This document shows, in pieces, positions 15,361 through 21,545 of a DNA stretch of 21,697 bases (within the stretch, counting starts at the first letter, position 1; every line of letters starts with the position of its first letter). The position numbers were made by a program, and so were the translations under genes. Origin of the DNA: a virus; the IMG/VR virus record IMGVR_UViG_3300045973_000471, positions 1-21,697 of that record. The stretch is one strand, 5' to 3'. Below the pieces are notes generated by a model that searched no databases, had not been told where the DNA came from, and was given only the letters and a program-made list of their open reading frames with translations.

Positions 15361-16887
15361 ATGAAATTCTCCGACCACATTGCCCTGCGTGGCCGTTCCA
15401 TCGACTTTTCGGCGCTGGGCTTCTATCTGCCCAACCCCGACCCGATCCTGAAAACACGCGGAGGGCGCATCGAGTTGTATCGCGAGCTGCGCACCGACGC
15501 TCACGTCGGCGGCTGTATCCGCCGTCGCAAGTCGGCAGTCAAGGCGCTGGAATGGGGCGTCGATCGCGACCGGGCCAAGTCCCGCGTCACCCGCGAGATC
15601 GAGGCGATGTTTGCCGACATGGACCTTGAGCGCCTGATTGGCGAGGCAATGGATGCCGTGCTTTATGGCTACCAGCCAATGGAAATCCTCTGGGAGAGAC
15701 GCGGCAGCCTGGTAGTACCTGGTGAAGTGATCGGCAAGCCGCCGGAGTGGTTCCATTTCGACGCTGAGAATCGCCTGCGCTTCAAGACCCGTGAGAATCC
15801 GATGCACGGCGAGGAGATCCCGGCAATGAAGTTCCTGCTTCCTCGGCAGGATGCAACGTACCAGAATCCCTATGGTTTCGCTGATCTGTCGATGTGCTTC
15901 TGGCCCATCGTGTTCAAGAAGGGCGGCGTCAAGTTCTGGCTGGCCTTCACCGAGAAGTTTGGCAGTGCTTTTTCTCTCGGCAAGCTGCCGCGCGGCGCCA
16001 CGGCTGAAGAGCGGGCAAGCATGCTCGACAGCCTGGAGTCCTTGATTCAGGATGGCGTGGCCACCATCCCCGACGACGGCAGCGTCGAACTGGTCGAGAT
16101 GGCGGGCAAGAGCGCCAGCGCCGACCTCTACGAGAAGCTGGTGATGTATTGCCGCAGCGAGGTCAGCATTGCCCTCACCGGCACCAACCAGACGACCGAG
16201 GCCAGCAGCAATAAGGCTAGTGCCAGCGCCGGGCTGGAAGTCGCTGATGACCTGCGCGATGGTGATGCCGAGATTGTGGCGGCTGCGATCAACCAGCTTA
16301 TCCGCTGGGTGGTCGAGATTAACTGGGGCAACGCAGCGGCGCCGGTATTTGAGCTGTGGGACCAGGAAGCCCGTGACAAGATCCAGGCTGAGCGCGACAA
16401 GTCGCTGAAGGATGCTGGCGCCAACCTGACCCGGGCCTATTTCATCCGCTCCTACAATCTGCAGGAAGGTGATATTGCCGAGCCACCGCCGGCGCTGGTG
16501 AATCCTGCGGCCACTTCGGAAAACACGCCCAAAACGCAGGCAGACCAGGTCGCCTCCAATATGGCTCAGCAGGCTGATGCGGCGAAGGCTGAGTTTTCCG
16601 AAGTGCAGGCCGTCGAGATCCCGCAGGCGGACGATTCCGACCGGCTGTCCACGGCCACACAGCCCACCGTCGACGATCTGCTCGGAACCATTTCCGAAAT
16701 GGTTAATTCCGCTGGTGATTTGACCGAACTACAACGCAACCTTCTCAATGCCTATGGCGATTTGGACAGCGCTGAGCTGACAAGCCTGATGGCTGCCGCA
16801 TTCGCCCTGGCCGAGCTGAAGGGCATAGCTGCCGTCAGGCTTGAATCAGGGTTTTCAACTTCAACCTCCCCAATGGAGAAATCATGA
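15361..16887 (+). CDS. Portal protein (DUF935, Mu gp29-like)
   Basis: A 508-residue portal, the ring at the head vertex through which DNA passes. Typical DUF935 phrases are seen: HVGGCIRRRKSAVKALEWGV (about 50-70), LYGYQPMEILWE and TGTNQTTEASSNKASAS (about 275). The Asp/Gln-rich C-terminal part is helical. The ATG at 15361 has no strong ribosome binding site but follows the terminase stop by one base; a longer frame begins inside the terminase gene. The last residues (ESGFSTSTSPMEKS) differ from usual portal ends, consistent with a junction to the next, foreign-looking gene. Confidence 0.92.
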   Translation: MKFSDHIALRGRSIDFSALGFYLPNPDPILKTRGGRIELYRELRTDAHVGGCIRRRKSAVKALEWGVDRDRAKSRVTREIEAMFADMDLERLIGEAMDAVLYGYQPMEILWERRGSLVVPGEVIGKPPEWFHFDAENRLRFKTRENPMHGEEIPAMKFLLPRQDATYQNPYGFADLSMCFWPIVFKKGGVKFWLAFTEKFGSAFSLGKLPRGATAEERASMLDSLESLIQDGVATIPDDGSVELVEMAGKSASADLYEKLVMYCRSEVSIALTGTNQTTEASSNKASASAGLEVADDLRDGDAEIVAAAINQLIRWVVEINWGNAAAPVFELWDQEARDKIQAERDKSLKDAGANLTRAYFIRSYNLQEGDIAEPPPALVNPAATSENTPKTQADQVASNMAQQADAAKAEFSEVQAVEIPQADDSDRLSTATQPTVDDLLGTISEMVNSAGDLTELQRNLLNAYGDLDSAELTSLMAAAFALAELKGIAAVRLESGFSTSTSPMEKS

Positions 16888-18425
16888 GCCATCAATCTTC
16901 CCCGCTGATGACCGTTACGGTCCGACTTGCCGGAGCATGTACCCGCGGTCGCCTGATCAATTACCAGAAAAAACAGGCGATCCCTGGTGAAGTCTGTTTG
17001 GGTGTCTCTGTCGCCGACGGCAAGGTGAATGAACAGGTTCAGATCAATGTTCTGGGCAGCGCAACAGTGCAAACTGGCGGCATTTTCGCTGCCGGTGATC
17101 CTCTTGCATCCGATGCAAGCGGCCAAGTGGTGCTTTTCACTGGGGCTGGATATTGCGTCGGCCGCGCCATGGAGCCATCGACGGTTTCTGGCCAGTTCGT
17201 GGAAATGCTGCTGAATACGACTGCGCAAGAAAATCAGGTCAATGCAATTAAGACCGTCACCGGGAGGATTGAAGTTTTAGCCGGATCGGTTATTGACGGC
17301 ACTATCTACAATTTCGATCCGAAGAATTACAAGAATGCTCGCGCTGCGCTTGCAGACGTGAAGGCCGGGCTTGGTCACATGAACGTACTGTGTCTCGGTG
17401 ACTCAACAACTGCCGGCGTGAATGAAAGCGGTAACGCGAACGAGGTTGCTAGTTCGTGGGTGCGCCGACTTTCTGACCAGATGACTTCTTCGGGCATTCC
17501 ATCTAGCTGGCAAAACGTGATGGGCGACCACGCATGTAATAACAGCGGCGGTCTGCCTGATACTCGCGGCGTTGCTACCCTCGATACCCGAGTAGGCGCA
17601 CTCTCAGCAAACTGGGGGCCGCTCGGTGGATCAACAGGCTTGGCTCTTGGATTCAATCTTTTCATGACCAACACGGTGGATCAGATCACTTTCACGCCGT
17701 CAGGAAGCACAGACACGCTTGAGTTGTTCTACGTAGATCAGCCGGGTTATGCGGCAATTTCGGCCTTCGGTGGCGCTGCTGGAGCGACAGCTTCAACTCC
17801 GGCAACCGTTGTTCCTGCTGGCGATGGCAGAATTAAAAGTGCTGTATTTACGTGCGCCGGAACGTCAGTGTGGAAATTCGGCGGTGCTGGCGGTGCAAAT
17901 ATTATCCTTATTGGCTGGAAGGCGTACAACGCAGCGACTAAAGAAATCAGTTTCTTGAACTGCGGAAATCATTCGCAGAAATCAAGTCAGCCGCTTAGTG
18001 GTCCGCAGTATTACAGCGCCCTGAAAACCATTACAGATTCAACTAGCGCGTTGAAAAGCCCGCTCGCCTTTTACAGTTTTGGTATTAACGAGTGGCTGAA
18101 TAACTACTCTGCGGCTCAAACGCTGGCGAACATTCAAGGGCTGATCGCTCCTGCTCAGGCTGTAGGAACGGATGTTGTGCTGATTGTTCCGCCACCGTCT
18201 CCAACATCGCTTGCCACAGATGCCGCTCAACAGGCCCAAATTGCATCAATTTACGCAGCGGCAAGCCAATACAACTGCGCAGTCATTGACCTGTCAATGC
18301 GATGGGGTTCTCAGGCTGTCAGTTATCCGCTCAATATGTATGCAGGGCCGGGCGATGTCCATCCGTCTAAGCGTGGATACGCGGACATTGCTTCAGCAGT
18401 TCGCCGCTTCATGATTGCACTGTAA
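16884..18425 (+). CDS. Capsid-decoration (DUF2190-like) / SGNH-hydrolase fusion
   Basis: A 513-residue two-part protein. Residues about 10-110 resemble DUF2190-type capsid decoration proteins (LAGACTRGRLINYQ, ALGV-like CLGVSVADG, QINVLGSATVQTGG, GYCVGRAMEPS, FVEMLL). Residues about 165-513 form an SGNH/GDSL hydrolase with all key blocks: GDS (S174), GIN (N402) and DVH (D491, H493). The stretch about 230-350 is probably a beta-sandwich insert. Such hydrolases remove acyl or acetyl groups, often from sugars. If the first domain binds the head, the enzyme would be displayed on the capsid. GGAG at 16875-16878 supports the start, overlapping the portal stop. G+C is lower than in neighbours. Confidence 0.8.
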   Translation: MSHQSSPLMTVTVRLAGACTRGRLINYQKKQAIPGEVCLGVSVADGKVNEQVQINVLGSATVQTGGIFAAGDPLASDASGQVVLFTGAGYCVGRAMEPSTVSGQFVEMLLNTTAQENQVNAIKTVTGRIEVLAGSVIDGTIYNFDPKNYKNARAALADVKAGLGHMNVLCLGDSTTAGVNESGNANEVASSWVRRLSDQMTSSGIPSSWQNVMGDHACNNSGGLPDTRGVATLDTRVGALSANWGPLGGSTGLALGFNLFMTNTVDQITFTPSGSTDTLELFYVDQPGYAAISAFGGAAGATASTPATVVPAGDGRIKSAVFTCAGTSVWKFGGAGGANIILIGWKAYNAATKEISFLNCGNHSQKSSQPLSGPQYYSALKTITDSTSALKSPLAFYSFGINEWLNNYSAAQTLANIQGLIAPAQAVGTDVVLIVPPPSPTSLATDAAQQAQIASIYAAASQYNCAVIDLSMRWGSQAVSYPLNMYAGPGDVHPSKRGYADIASAVRRFMIAL

Positions 18426-18449: not shown

Positions 18450-19373
18450 GTGAGCTTAGCTACTACCTTACTCGCCTCGACCATTGGCCGGGTGTCCCCA
18501 AAATACAGGACCCTCGACCAGTGGGCTGAGACATATCGCAAAATTATTGCTGCTCGGCAGATCAGCGATAAGACGAAAGCGAATCGTCGCAGCAGCCTCG
18601 CGCACATCATTTGTTCTCTGAGTGGTGACCGGATCATCTCAAGCATTAAGCCGCATGAGGTGGCTGGGATGGTTCAAGAGATAGGAAAACGCCAGCCACA
18701 CACTGCAAAACGAGTCTTGATCGAAGCAAAAGACATGTTTTCAGAGGCAATAAACTATGGCTGGCTTGATCGGAATCCTGCGACACCAATCAAGGCTCCG
18801 CCAGTTCGTGTTCGCCGTCATAGGCTAACTATCGATCAATGGTGGGCAATTCTCCAATACTCCATAGAGAACATGCCTGCATGGGTTCCACGGATGCTTG
18901 CCCTGGCGCTGGTAACCGGTCAACGCAGGAGTGACCTTAGCCGGATGAAATTTTCAGACCTGTGGGACGGTCATTTGCATGTCGAGCAGGCGAAGACCGG
19001 AGAGCGCATTGCAATTCCATTGGCACTAAAACTGAATGCGATCGATTTGACCGTTGGAGAAATTATTGATGATTGCAGGGGTTACTACGTACCAGGCGAT
19101 GGGTTTCTGTTGAGAAAACATAATGGCATGCAGCTGGGTGATGCCTCTCTTTCTGCGAGGTTTGAAGAGGCGCGTGAAAATGCGTTGCCAAAAATTGGAG
19201 CAAATCCTCCATCACTTCACGAGTGCCGTTCGCTTTCAGAAAGGCTGTATCGCGATCAGGGCATCAATACAATGATTTTGCTCGGCCATAAACATCAGGC
19301 GATGACCGACATGTATAACGACGACCGAGGACTTACTCGGGGCAAGTGGCGAACAGTAGAGCTGGCAACCTGA
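18450..19373 (+). CDS. Tyrosine recombinase (phage integrase family)
   Basis: A 307-residue site-specific recombinase with a SAM-like N-terminal core-binding domain (about 20-110, TLDQWAETYRKIIAA and so on) and a catalytic domain with all residues in place: R159 (TGQR), K182 (AKTGE), H257 and R260 (HECR), H280 (LLGH) and the nucleophile Y289 (DMY). The ending resembles DLP12-type integrases. It starts with GTG and no clear ribosome binding site. Such a gene is not expected within the head operon of a transposable phage, which integrates by its DDE transposase. No attachment site was found around it. The local G+C is about 42-55%, lower than the flanks. gpF begins two bases after its stop. Confidence 0.9.
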   Translation: MSLATTLLASTIGRVSPKYRTLDQWAETYRKIIAARQISDKTKANRRSSLAHIICSLSGDRIISSIKPHEVAGMVQEIGKRQPHTAKRVLIEAKDMFSEAINYGWLDRNPATPIKAPPVRVRRHRLTIDQWWAILQYSIENMPAWVPRMLALALVTGQRRSDLSRMKFSDLWDGHLHVEQAKTGERIAIPLALKLNAIDLTVGEIIDDCRGYYVPGDGFLLRKHNGMQLGDASLSARFEEARENALPKIGANPPSLHECRSLSERLYRDQGINTMILLGHKHQAMTDMYNDDRGLTRGKWRTVELAT

Positions 19374-19375
19374 TA

Positions 19376-20881
19376 ATGATAAATATCGGTTTCAATACGC
19401 CGTTCGACGAGCAAATCACTTTCTTCCGGCAAAAACTGAATCTTCCGACCGAGCGTTGGGATGACATCATGCGCGCCGCGCATGACCGCTCGTTCGTCGT
19501 CGCAGGAGCGATGAAAGCAGACCTGTTGGCTGATCTCAATACCGCGGTCGGCACCGCAATTGCAGATGGAAAATCGATTGGATGGTTCCGCGATAACTTC
19601 AAGGCTATCGTCAAAAAACATGGCTGGACGGGCTGGACCGGTGAGGGCACTCCAGCTGGTGAAGCATGGCGTACTAAGGTCATTTACCAGACCAACCTGT
19701 CGACCAGCTATGCCGCCGGCCGTTATGCCCAGTTGAACGATCCGGAGCTGCTGAAAGTTCGCCCGTACTGGCGCTACAAGCACGCTGACGGCGTCGCCAA
19801 TCCACGTCTGCAGCACGTCGCCTGGAATGGCTTGACGCTACCGCATGACCATCTTTTCTGGCAGACGCATTTTCCGCCTAATGGCTGGGGCTGTCATTGT
19901 TCTGTACAGGCTGTCAGCAAGCGCGAATACGTCAAGGCACAGGCCGCAGGACTTGATTCCCCGCCAGAAGGTTGGGATGCGATAGATGAGAAAACCGGGG
20001 CCCCTCGGGGTATCGCCAAAGGCTTTGATTACGCCCCCGGAGCCAGCCTCAGTGACGAAATTGGACGCTTCGTTGAAAGGAAGGCGATCGACCTTCCAAA
20101 AAGTATTGCCAAAGTACTCCAGGATGATGTGGCCAGACTTTCAAAGCCTGTATTTGCCGAGGCGCCAACAGTGAAGGCAGCAGCCGAATGGGCTGTCAAA
20201 AATAACCTGGCCGACTTCGCCGACTATTCTGGCATCAAGCCGGAAGTGGCCAATGCATGGAATAGGAGTCTGTTCGATCACCTTCAGGAATTTCCCGAGC
20301 TGCGCGCCAATCAGAAATTTGTGGGAACGTGCCAGGCACAGTTCTCTCGCTGGCGTGAAATCGAGATCGATCGCTATATCACCAGGCTGCGGGCTCAAAA
20401 CAAACACCTCCCGGATGATTTCGACTTTAGGCTTCATGCGGAACGCCATATCGGATCGAGGAAGGTGGGAGGATCGACCTGGGCGCATTCATGGGCGAAT
20501 GGCGACGTGTCTGGAATCTCCGTCAACAAGAAGTGGGGATCAGCGCTGGACGAATTTAAGGCCTCTCTACTGCGGAATGTGGATACCAAATACCACCCGA
20601 TCGGATGCGACAGCATCAGAAGCGTGGTCGACCACGAATTGGGTCATCAAATCGATGATTTGCTTAGACTTCACCTTGACGCTGCTGTCATTGCCGCCTA
20701 TAAAGAGGCGAGAGCTTTAGGAATTACAGAAAAGGTTTCCGCCTATGCCAACAAGAACATCAAGGAATTCATCGCCGAGTGCTGGGCAGAGTCGCTCAAC
20801 AACGCGAGCCCGCGCGCCTTTGCCACAAGGATCGCCGGAATCATTCGCCAGCGATATTCAGATAAATTTGGTGCCGTATGA
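19376..20881 (+). CDS. gpF-like head morphogenesis protein with C-terminal zincin-like domain
   Basis: A 502-residue protein. Residues about 1-190 are the MuF (gpF/SPP1 gp7-like) domain, with YQTNLSTSYAAGRYAQL (about 104-120) and the typical LFWQTHFPPNGWGCHC (about 160-175). In MuF proteins this part associates with the portal and is packaged in the head. The C-terminal part (about 330-502) is unusual: it has HELGH (H420, E421, H424) followed by EFIAECWAE (464-472), a zinc-protease pattern like that of lethal-factor-type zincins. The DNA of this part is lower in G+C than the MuF part. The ATG at 19376 is preferred to an upstream GTG at 19346. Related MuF proteins carry variable toxin ends. 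Confidence 0.87.
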   Translation: MINIGFNTPFDEQITFFRQKLNLPTERWDDIMRAAHDRSFVVAGAMKADLLADLNTAVGTAIADGKSIGWFRDNFKAIVKKHGWTGWTGEGTPAGEAWRTKVIYQTNLSTSYAAGRYAQLNDPELLKVRPYWRYKHADGVANPRLQHVAWNGLTLPHDHLFWQTHFPPNGWGCHCSVQAVSKREYVKAQAAGLDSPPEGWDAIDEKTGAPRGIAKGFDYAPGASLSDEIGRFVERKAIDLPKSIAKVLQDDVARLSKPVFAEAPTVKAAAEWAVKNNLADFADYSGIKPEVANAWNRSLFDHLQEFPELRANQKFVGTCQAQFSRWREIEIDRYITRLRAQNKHLPDDFDFRLHAERHIGSRKVGGSTWAHSWANGDVSGISVNKKWGSALDEFKASLLRNVDTKYHPIGCDSIRSVVDHELGHQIDDLLRLHLDAAVIAAYKEARALGITEKVSAYANKNIKEFIAECWAESLNNASPRAFATRIAGIIRQRYSDKFGAV

Positions 20882-21019: not shown

Positions 21020-21032
21020 ATTGGGAGATGCC

Positions 21033-21545
21033 ATGAGCCAATTTTCCATCGCCGTCGACGACGCTGCTGTTATGGCCGCCCTGCAGCGCATTCGGGCGCG
21101 CACTGAAAACCTCGGCCCAGTTCTCAAGGCGATCGGTGAAGACCTGGTTGGAAGCACCAAGCAGCGTTTCGCAACCGCGACCTCACCAGATGGAACGCCA
21201 TGGGCAAGGAATAGCGATGTCACCATCTCGCGCTACCTTGGGTTGAGTAGCGCCAATTTCAAAAAGGATGGATCTCTGTCTAAGAAGGGCGAGGCTCGAC
21301 TGGCTGGAAAGAAACCGCTCACCGGTGAAACTGGCGCACTTGGCCAGCAAATACACTACCAGGTGAATGGAAATGTCCTCGAAGTCGGATCGACCATGGA
21401 ATACGCCGCCATGCAGCAATTCGGTGGAAAGCGGTCTGATTTTCCGAACCTCTGGGGTGACATCCCGGCCCGCCCATTTTTGGGCCTGTCTGAACAGGAT
21501 ATTTCGGGCATCAACGAGACTGTTTTGGACTACCTGGAACTCTGA
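21033..21545 (+). CDS. gpG-like virion morphogenesis protein
   Basis: A 170-residue protein of the phage virion morphogenesis family (Mu gpG). Typical phrases are KQRFATATSPDGTPWA (about 45-60), LTGETGALGQQIHY (about 97-110), STMEYAAMQQFGG (about 121-133) and the ending IPARPFLGLSEQD. In Mu, gpG is a minor tail/head-completion factor linked to tail assembly. GGGAG at 21023-21027 supports the ATG at 21033; the TTG at 21021 is not needed. It is followed by a terminator. Confidence 0.9.
   Translation: MSQFSIAVDDAAVMAALQRIRARTENLGPVLKAIGEDLVGSTKQRFATATSPDGTPWARNSDVTISRYLGLSSANFKKDGSLSKKGEARLAGKKPLTGETGALGQQIHYQVNGNVLEVGSTMEYAAMQQFGGKRSDFPNLWGDIPARPFLGLSEQDISGINETVLDYLEL

Follow-up and report, generated by a model that had tools for sequence, protein, structure and literature searches.

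A capsid decoration domain fused to a predicted SGNH esterase in the head operon of a Mu-like phage

Enzymes that remove or alter host glycans are usually regarded as tail equipment. On phage heads, some decoration proteins, including Hoc, gp8.5, and others, are known to bind glycans or to help in attachment (PMC7602432). In phi29, the base of gp8.5 forms a trimer at quasi-threefold sites, its C-terminal part protrudes, and the protein is present in 165 copies per virion (PMC6542822). The archaeal virus HFTV1, whose turrets were described in 2025, has a turret head protein, gp31, that presents deacetylase-like and carbohydrate-binding-like domains on the head surface, as well as a capsid protein, CSP, that binds MCP trimers and resembles gp8.5; according to its authors, proteins such as gp31 are mostly located in the tails of bacteriophages (PMC12494034). 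Among the SGNH enzymes, NmApe1 has a carbohydrate-binding module inserted within its SGNH domain, and many CE2 SGNH esterases, as well as SsEst, are active with a Ser-His dyad and without the Block V Asp (PMC9487903). Here we describe P0001, a protein that joins a decoration domain to an SGNH domain, encoded on a 21.7-kb viral contig (the window, i.e., the whole stretch of 21,697 nucleotides that we analyzed).

A decoration domain and an SGNH domain in one gene

The window belongs to a Mu-like transposable phage, as identified by its MuA and MuB homologues and Mu-type head genes (Pfam/PHROG). The head genes lie on the + strand in the order gp27-type small terminase, large terminase, Mu-type portal, gpF, and gpG, and the contig stops 152 bases past gpG, with the capsid module outside. 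Some Mu-like relatives (L077/G001, G411, and G413) have a permuted layout, with the protease-cement-capsid-tail module in reverse orientation to the left of MuA. These genomes likewise terminate shortly past gpG, so the end of the window may be the true right end of the genome. Two extra genes, P0001 and then a tyrosine integrase, separate the portal from gpF (Table 1). The integrase shares ~37–41% identity with phage integrases, and its catalytic R, K, HxxR, H, and Y are apparently there, judged by eye; a phage bearing MuA and MuB here has a lambda-type integrase within its late head operon. We found no convincing att-like repeats flanking the two-gene insert.

The P0001 open reading frame is real, and the first-pass annotation had its coordinates and frame right (513 aa, ATG at 16884). 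This ATG overlaps the portal stop codon by four bases (ATGA), GGAGAA lies a few bases 5' of it, and no promoter-like site was found on the + strand in the P0001 region. P0001 is therefore probably co-expressed with the late head genes.

Table 1 Features of the P0001 locus (positions in the window)
Feature	Position	Strand	Basis
Portal gene (Mu gp29-like)	15361..16887	+	PF06074, 304 bits; start set by alignment with relatives
P0001, 513-aa fusion: Phage_cement_2 decoration domain and SGNH/GDSL hydrolase	16884..18425	+	Pfam and AF2 fold
Decoration/cement domain, aa 1-112, complete	16884..17219	+	PF09956, stand-alone cement alignment, 6qyy profile, fold
Linker between domains, aa 113-145, low confidence	17220..17318	+	pLDDT <50 at aa 113-138
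SGNH part 1, Block I GDSTTAG (S174 codon 17403-17405)	17319..17600	+	AF2, family alignment
Beta module inserted in SGNH fold, ~aa 240-350, as in Ape1	17601..17933	+	AF2, structural match
SGNH part 2: Block II G361, Block III N402 (18087-18089), Block V G490-D491-V492-H493 (18351-18362)	17934..18422	+	
Tyrosine integrase (lambda type), the second insert gene	18450..19373	+	PF00589, 52.6 bits
Mu gpF-like minor head gene	19376..20881	+	PF04233, 43 bits
Mu gpG-like virion morphogenesis gene	21021..21545	+	PF05069, 84.5 bits

The N-terminal domain of P0001 was recognized by PF09956 (Phage_cement_2/DUF2190) at aa 6-108, with 35.8 bits against a cut-off of 24 (E 1e-8) and profile positions 4-101 of 103 covered, and by the PHROG head family phrog_673 (E 3e-18). 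Residues 1-112 can be aligned end to end with stand-alone decoration proteins of 108-123 aa from Mu-like relatives. An iterated profile built from these residues retrieved ~100 proteins among relatives, and since nearly all of them are 108-123 aa long, P0001 begins with a whole decoration protein. The stand-alone cements that we examined adjoin the major capsid gene. When run against PDB sequences, the decoration-protein profile matched phi29's capsid fibre protein at E 2.8e-5 (6qyy) and E 1.3e-4 (6qvk). The AF2 model of this domain (pLDDT >90) matched 6qyy with a TM of 0.72 and HFTV1 8qsy chains with a TM of up to 0.72 (Foldseek). The DUF2190-type decoration identity proposed for the N-terminal ~110 residues was thus borne out by profile, family, and fold alike. 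In a tree, the domain groups with cements of Rhodocyclales Mu-like phages, which argues that it is native to Mu-like phages. By position, P0001 itself is no orthologue of the housekeeping cement of Mu-like phages, as it comprises 513 aa and lies between portal and gpF, versus ~110 aa beside the capsid gene. ORF h of PaMx73, whose gene lies between the protease and capsid genes, is a virion protein by mass spectrometry (PMC4378225). We considered it as virion evidence for the cement family, but it has no PF09956 match and is therefore only a positional analogue.

The C-terminal domain matches PF13472 with 54.4 bits (cut-off 32.9). For this domain and for the decoration domain, the match is much stronger than chance would give. 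Our AF2 model of the full protein, built from 22 sequences, reached a mean pLDDT of 80 and a pTM of 0.71, with both cores mostly at ~90; a model made without an alignment (pLDDT 35) was discarded. The fold prediction suggested by the first-pass annotation for the two parts returned a decoration fold and an SGNH alpha/beta/alpha fold, the latter with Z of 17–26 against many SGNH structures. The best structural matches were Ape1 peptidoglycan O-acetylesterases (4k3u, Z 26.5 over 319 residues; 8gkd, Z 24.3 over 326 residues), with the beta module included, while non-Ape1 SGNH structures scored Z ~21 or less, over ~175–205 residues only. Ape1 was absent from the PDB sequence matches of the SGNH family profile at E 0.01, so the link between P0001 and Ape1 is structural only. 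This closest structural analogue of the model suggests that the substrate is an O-acetylated glycan, peptidoglycan or another, and not lipid. The domain had been annotated as a sugar or lipid deacylase; the near-complete SGNH set supports a deacylase, and the Ape1 match favours sugar over lipid.

To define the SGNH family, we combined a GDSTTAG pattern search with a family alignment, yielding 14 rows in all with whole-domain coverage. An initial mixed alignment, which placed SGNH Block I opposite the cement domain, was set aside. S174, G361, N402, and H493 are invariant in all 14 sequences. The Block V Asp of SGNH enzymes usually lies three residues before the His (DxxH), yet it is outside the four residues that give these enzymes their name. 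In P0001, this column (H minus 3) holds G490, versus D in 12 of the 13 relatives, and D491 is found at H minus 2, after a two-residue insertion. The catalytic set, which had been read as full, thus stands for S174, N402, and H493, with D491 one residue out of register; the invariant Block II glycine, G361, had not been named. Since active SGNH enzymes without the Block V Asp exist, activity of P0001 is likely, though not certain.

An accessory slot and fusions in related prophages

We surveyed 149 related loci (some of them overlapping) in which both portal and gpF could be placed. The portal was followed directly by gpF in most of these, and the gap exceeded 700 bases in only 7, whose inserts encode Mtd-like (PF21916), laminin-G-like (weak), and gp80-like fibre (PF23140) proteins, as well as unknown proteins. 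Given that the gap is closed in most relatives and filled by varied inserts in others, P0001 occupies an accessory slot. The Mtd-like proteins in this slot (L106 3911-5005 and L143 10797-12215) are possibly targets of diversity-generating retroelements. The GC content of the insert is 0.49–0.56, versus 0.60–0.62 in the terminase region, and is low in the downstream genes too, including gpF. Whole-protein searches of phages, viral contigs, genomes, and plasmids recovered no relative of the whole fusion.

We saw no second PF09956 gene within the window, which ends before the capsid module. A stand-alone decoration gene is found in nearly all relatives whose sequence extends far enough (none was found in G410, a 37.8-kb record), and one is therefore expected in this phage as well.

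Long cement fusions were rare among ~1,160 genomes, surveyed in three overlapping draws, and comprised P0002, a fusion in G954, one 316-aa protein, and one tandem cement. P0002 (582 aa; locus L077 of the Rhodocyclaceae MAG G001) has the decoration domain nearest to that of P0001, with 43% identity. The two domains are sisters in the tree (support 99/96), both on long branches. The C-terminal domain of P0002 has DDG, NH, and HD motifs by eye and is weakly similar (E 7.5e-4) to PF01522 polysaccharide deacetylase (the Pfam call being on the matched protein); no homologues of this domain were found in viral contigs. The gene lies upstream of the small terminase, in a region of G001 (~124–163 kb) that can be read as a single Mu-like prophage whose capsid-tail module is inverted. 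This region also carries a stand-alone cement beside the capsid gene. The G954 fusion (621 aa) starts with PF09956, followed by a stretch with GHSLTD and DDIHPG that is SGNH-like by eye only. Its gene is at the end of the tail operon, and a stand-alone cement adjoins the capsid gene of that prophage. The search for further phages with the same fusion, as proposed in the first-pass annotation, thus found none for the whole protein and, in G001 and G954, fusions of a cement to a deacylase-like part.

As for the two other proteins, the 316-aa one (L275 1983-2933, in G857) joins a phrog_673 decoration-like N-domain to an unknown C-domain of ~200 aa, and the tandem one (L276 2105-2923, in G537) has two Phage_cement_2 copies in one open reading frame of 272 aa. 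Three long open frames considered as fusions were rejected: in L274 and L278, the extra length is an N-terminal extension on a stand-alone cement, and in L174, the match is weak and the protein itself unclear.

The nearest relatives of the SGNH domain (L236 and L237, 42–44% identity) are encoded directly 3' of a P22-like portal gene, in L236 also upstream of the major head protein gene. In Gordonia phage Kewpiedoll, the SGNH gene comes after the major tail gene, and most of the remaining family members form the C-terminal domain of a tail fibre or minor tail protein. With relatives encoded in both, the family moves between tail and head modules. Another enzyme of this family (L239 4536-6059) lies directly after the major capsid gene; its unrelated N-domain, of the phrog_916 type, might be another capsid anchor.

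Possible location and role of P0001

Overall, P0001 is probably an accessory head protein, with its decoration domain on the capsid and an Ape1-like SGNH O-acetylesterase held out by the linker. By analogy with phi29 gp8.5 and HFTV1 CSP, the decoration domain would assemble as a trimer at quasi-threefold capsid sites, probably mixed sub-stoichiometrically with the ordinary stand-alone decoration protein of the phage. The flexible linker would project the esterase from the head, and the esterase may strip O-acetyl groups from a host envelope glycan when the head encounters a cell or cell debris; candidate glycans are the O-acetyl-MurNAc of peptidoglycan and the polysaccharides of the capsule or surface. 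Since nearly all complete relatives have stand-alone decoration genes, P0001 is probably an extra, minor head protein rather than the main cement. A head location is further favoured by the closest SGNH relatives, found after the portal gene (L236/L237) or the major capsid gene (L239), and by the G001 and G954 prophages, each of which carries a cement fusion together with a stand-alone cement.

Against a head enzyme, we counted the SGNH kin, found mostly in tail proteins, the Mtd-like adhesins in the same slot of L106/L143, the position of the G954 fusion at the end of the tail operon, and the Block V Asp being out of register. The first three of these, as well as the separate decoration protein that very likely exists, speak for the main rival explanation, in which a decoration-type domain has taken on a new use as an adaptor or in trimerisation and P0001 is located on the tail or baseplate, as other phage SGNH enzymes are. 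We consider this unlikely because the N-domain is a whole decoration protein with no adaptor added, the two homologues of known structure form trimers on the capsid surface, P0001 is coupled to the portal gene and not to tail genes, and head modules also encode its closest SGNH relatives. The first-pass annotation took a second, stand-alone decoration gene as a sign of a tail or non-virion protein; the relatives do carry such a gene, but this does not show either status, and a minor head protein mixed in with the ordinary cement is the likeliest outcome.

It is quite improbable that the C-domain is catalytically weak or dead and was kept as a glycan-binding head adhesin comparable to T4 Hoc or the head fibres of phi29. 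None of S, G, N, and H varies, D491 may still serve, and many CE2 SGNH esterases and SsEst work by a Ser-His dyad (PMC9487903), as opposed to G490 in the Asp column with a two-residue insertion before it, a beta module that resembles an inserted carbohydrate-binding module, and the precedent of glycan-binding head decoration proteins (PMC7602432). Slightly less likely still, in our estimation, is P0001 as the sole decoration protein, with hundreds of esterase copies per head. No other PF09956 gene is on the contig, but this ends 152 bases past gpG without the capsid module, most relatives that are covered far enough carry a stand-alone cement, and the two types occur together in G001 and G954; the many copies first envisaged are at odds with these relatives. 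Finally, a host-directed moron (a non-virion gene acquired with the integrase) or a chimeric contig would fit the adjacent lambda-type integrase, the GC shift of the insert relative to the terminase region, and the lack of a close relative of the whole protein in the collections searched, but is highly improbable given the four-base portal overlap, the lack of an own + strand promoter, the intact downstream gpF with its similarly low GC, and an N-domain that, falling among Rhodocyclales Mu-like cements, is native.

The decoration domain may have been duplicated as a general head socket for swappable glycan-deacylating enzymes in tailed phages, mixed into the decoration lattice, a proposal that we make tentatively. 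Just as tentatively, the enzyme part (SGNH O-acetylesterase, polysaccharide-deacetylase-like, or other SGNH-like) could be swapped like the tip of a tail fibre. Were such sockets to exist, heads too, besides tails, would be armed against host envelope glycans. P0001 makes the idea of a head enzyme directly testable with a single protein, and it would be a natural case of a large enzyme shown on a phage head via a cement domain.

Comparison with known systems

Searching the open-licence literature, we found no description of a cement domain-esterase fusion, and this direct fusion appears to be new. Ape1 (4K3U, 8GKD) matches P0001 over 319-326 residues, in the SGNH fold and in the beta module inserted there, but is a cellular enzyme without a decoration domain and with only 15–16% identity. 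The SGNH esterases of phage tail fibres (phrog_15881 type; found in Gordonia and Arthrobacter phages, among others) are homologous over the whole length of the SGNH domain, whereas they have tail-type N-termini or are free-standing, with no capsid decoration domain. Conversely, P0002 has a sister decoration domain, the same kind of architecture, and a Mu-like prophage context, yet its C-domain is unrelated to SGNH and its gene is located upstream of the small terminase.

The phi29 head fibre gp8.5 (6QYY, 6QVK) resembles P0001 in its ~110-aa N-terminal capsid-binding base, which is related in profile and fold; its C-terminal part, however, is a helical fibre and no enzyme. The concept of a head-mounted deacetylase-like domain is not unprecedented, as illustrated by HFTV1, and this virus's turrets, together with P0001 and the similar prophage fusions, suggest that capsids can bear glycan-modifying enzymes. 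The ~130-aa HFTV1 capsid protein in 8qsy, most likely CSP (gp18), shares the fold of the P0001 N-domain, and the HFTV1 head carries a deacetylase-like domain. In HFTV1, however, the enzyme-like part is separate, located on a hexameric turret base on hexamers, and has the fold of a zinc polysaccharide deacetylase, whereas in P0001 it is an SGNH deacylase fused directly to the cement domain.
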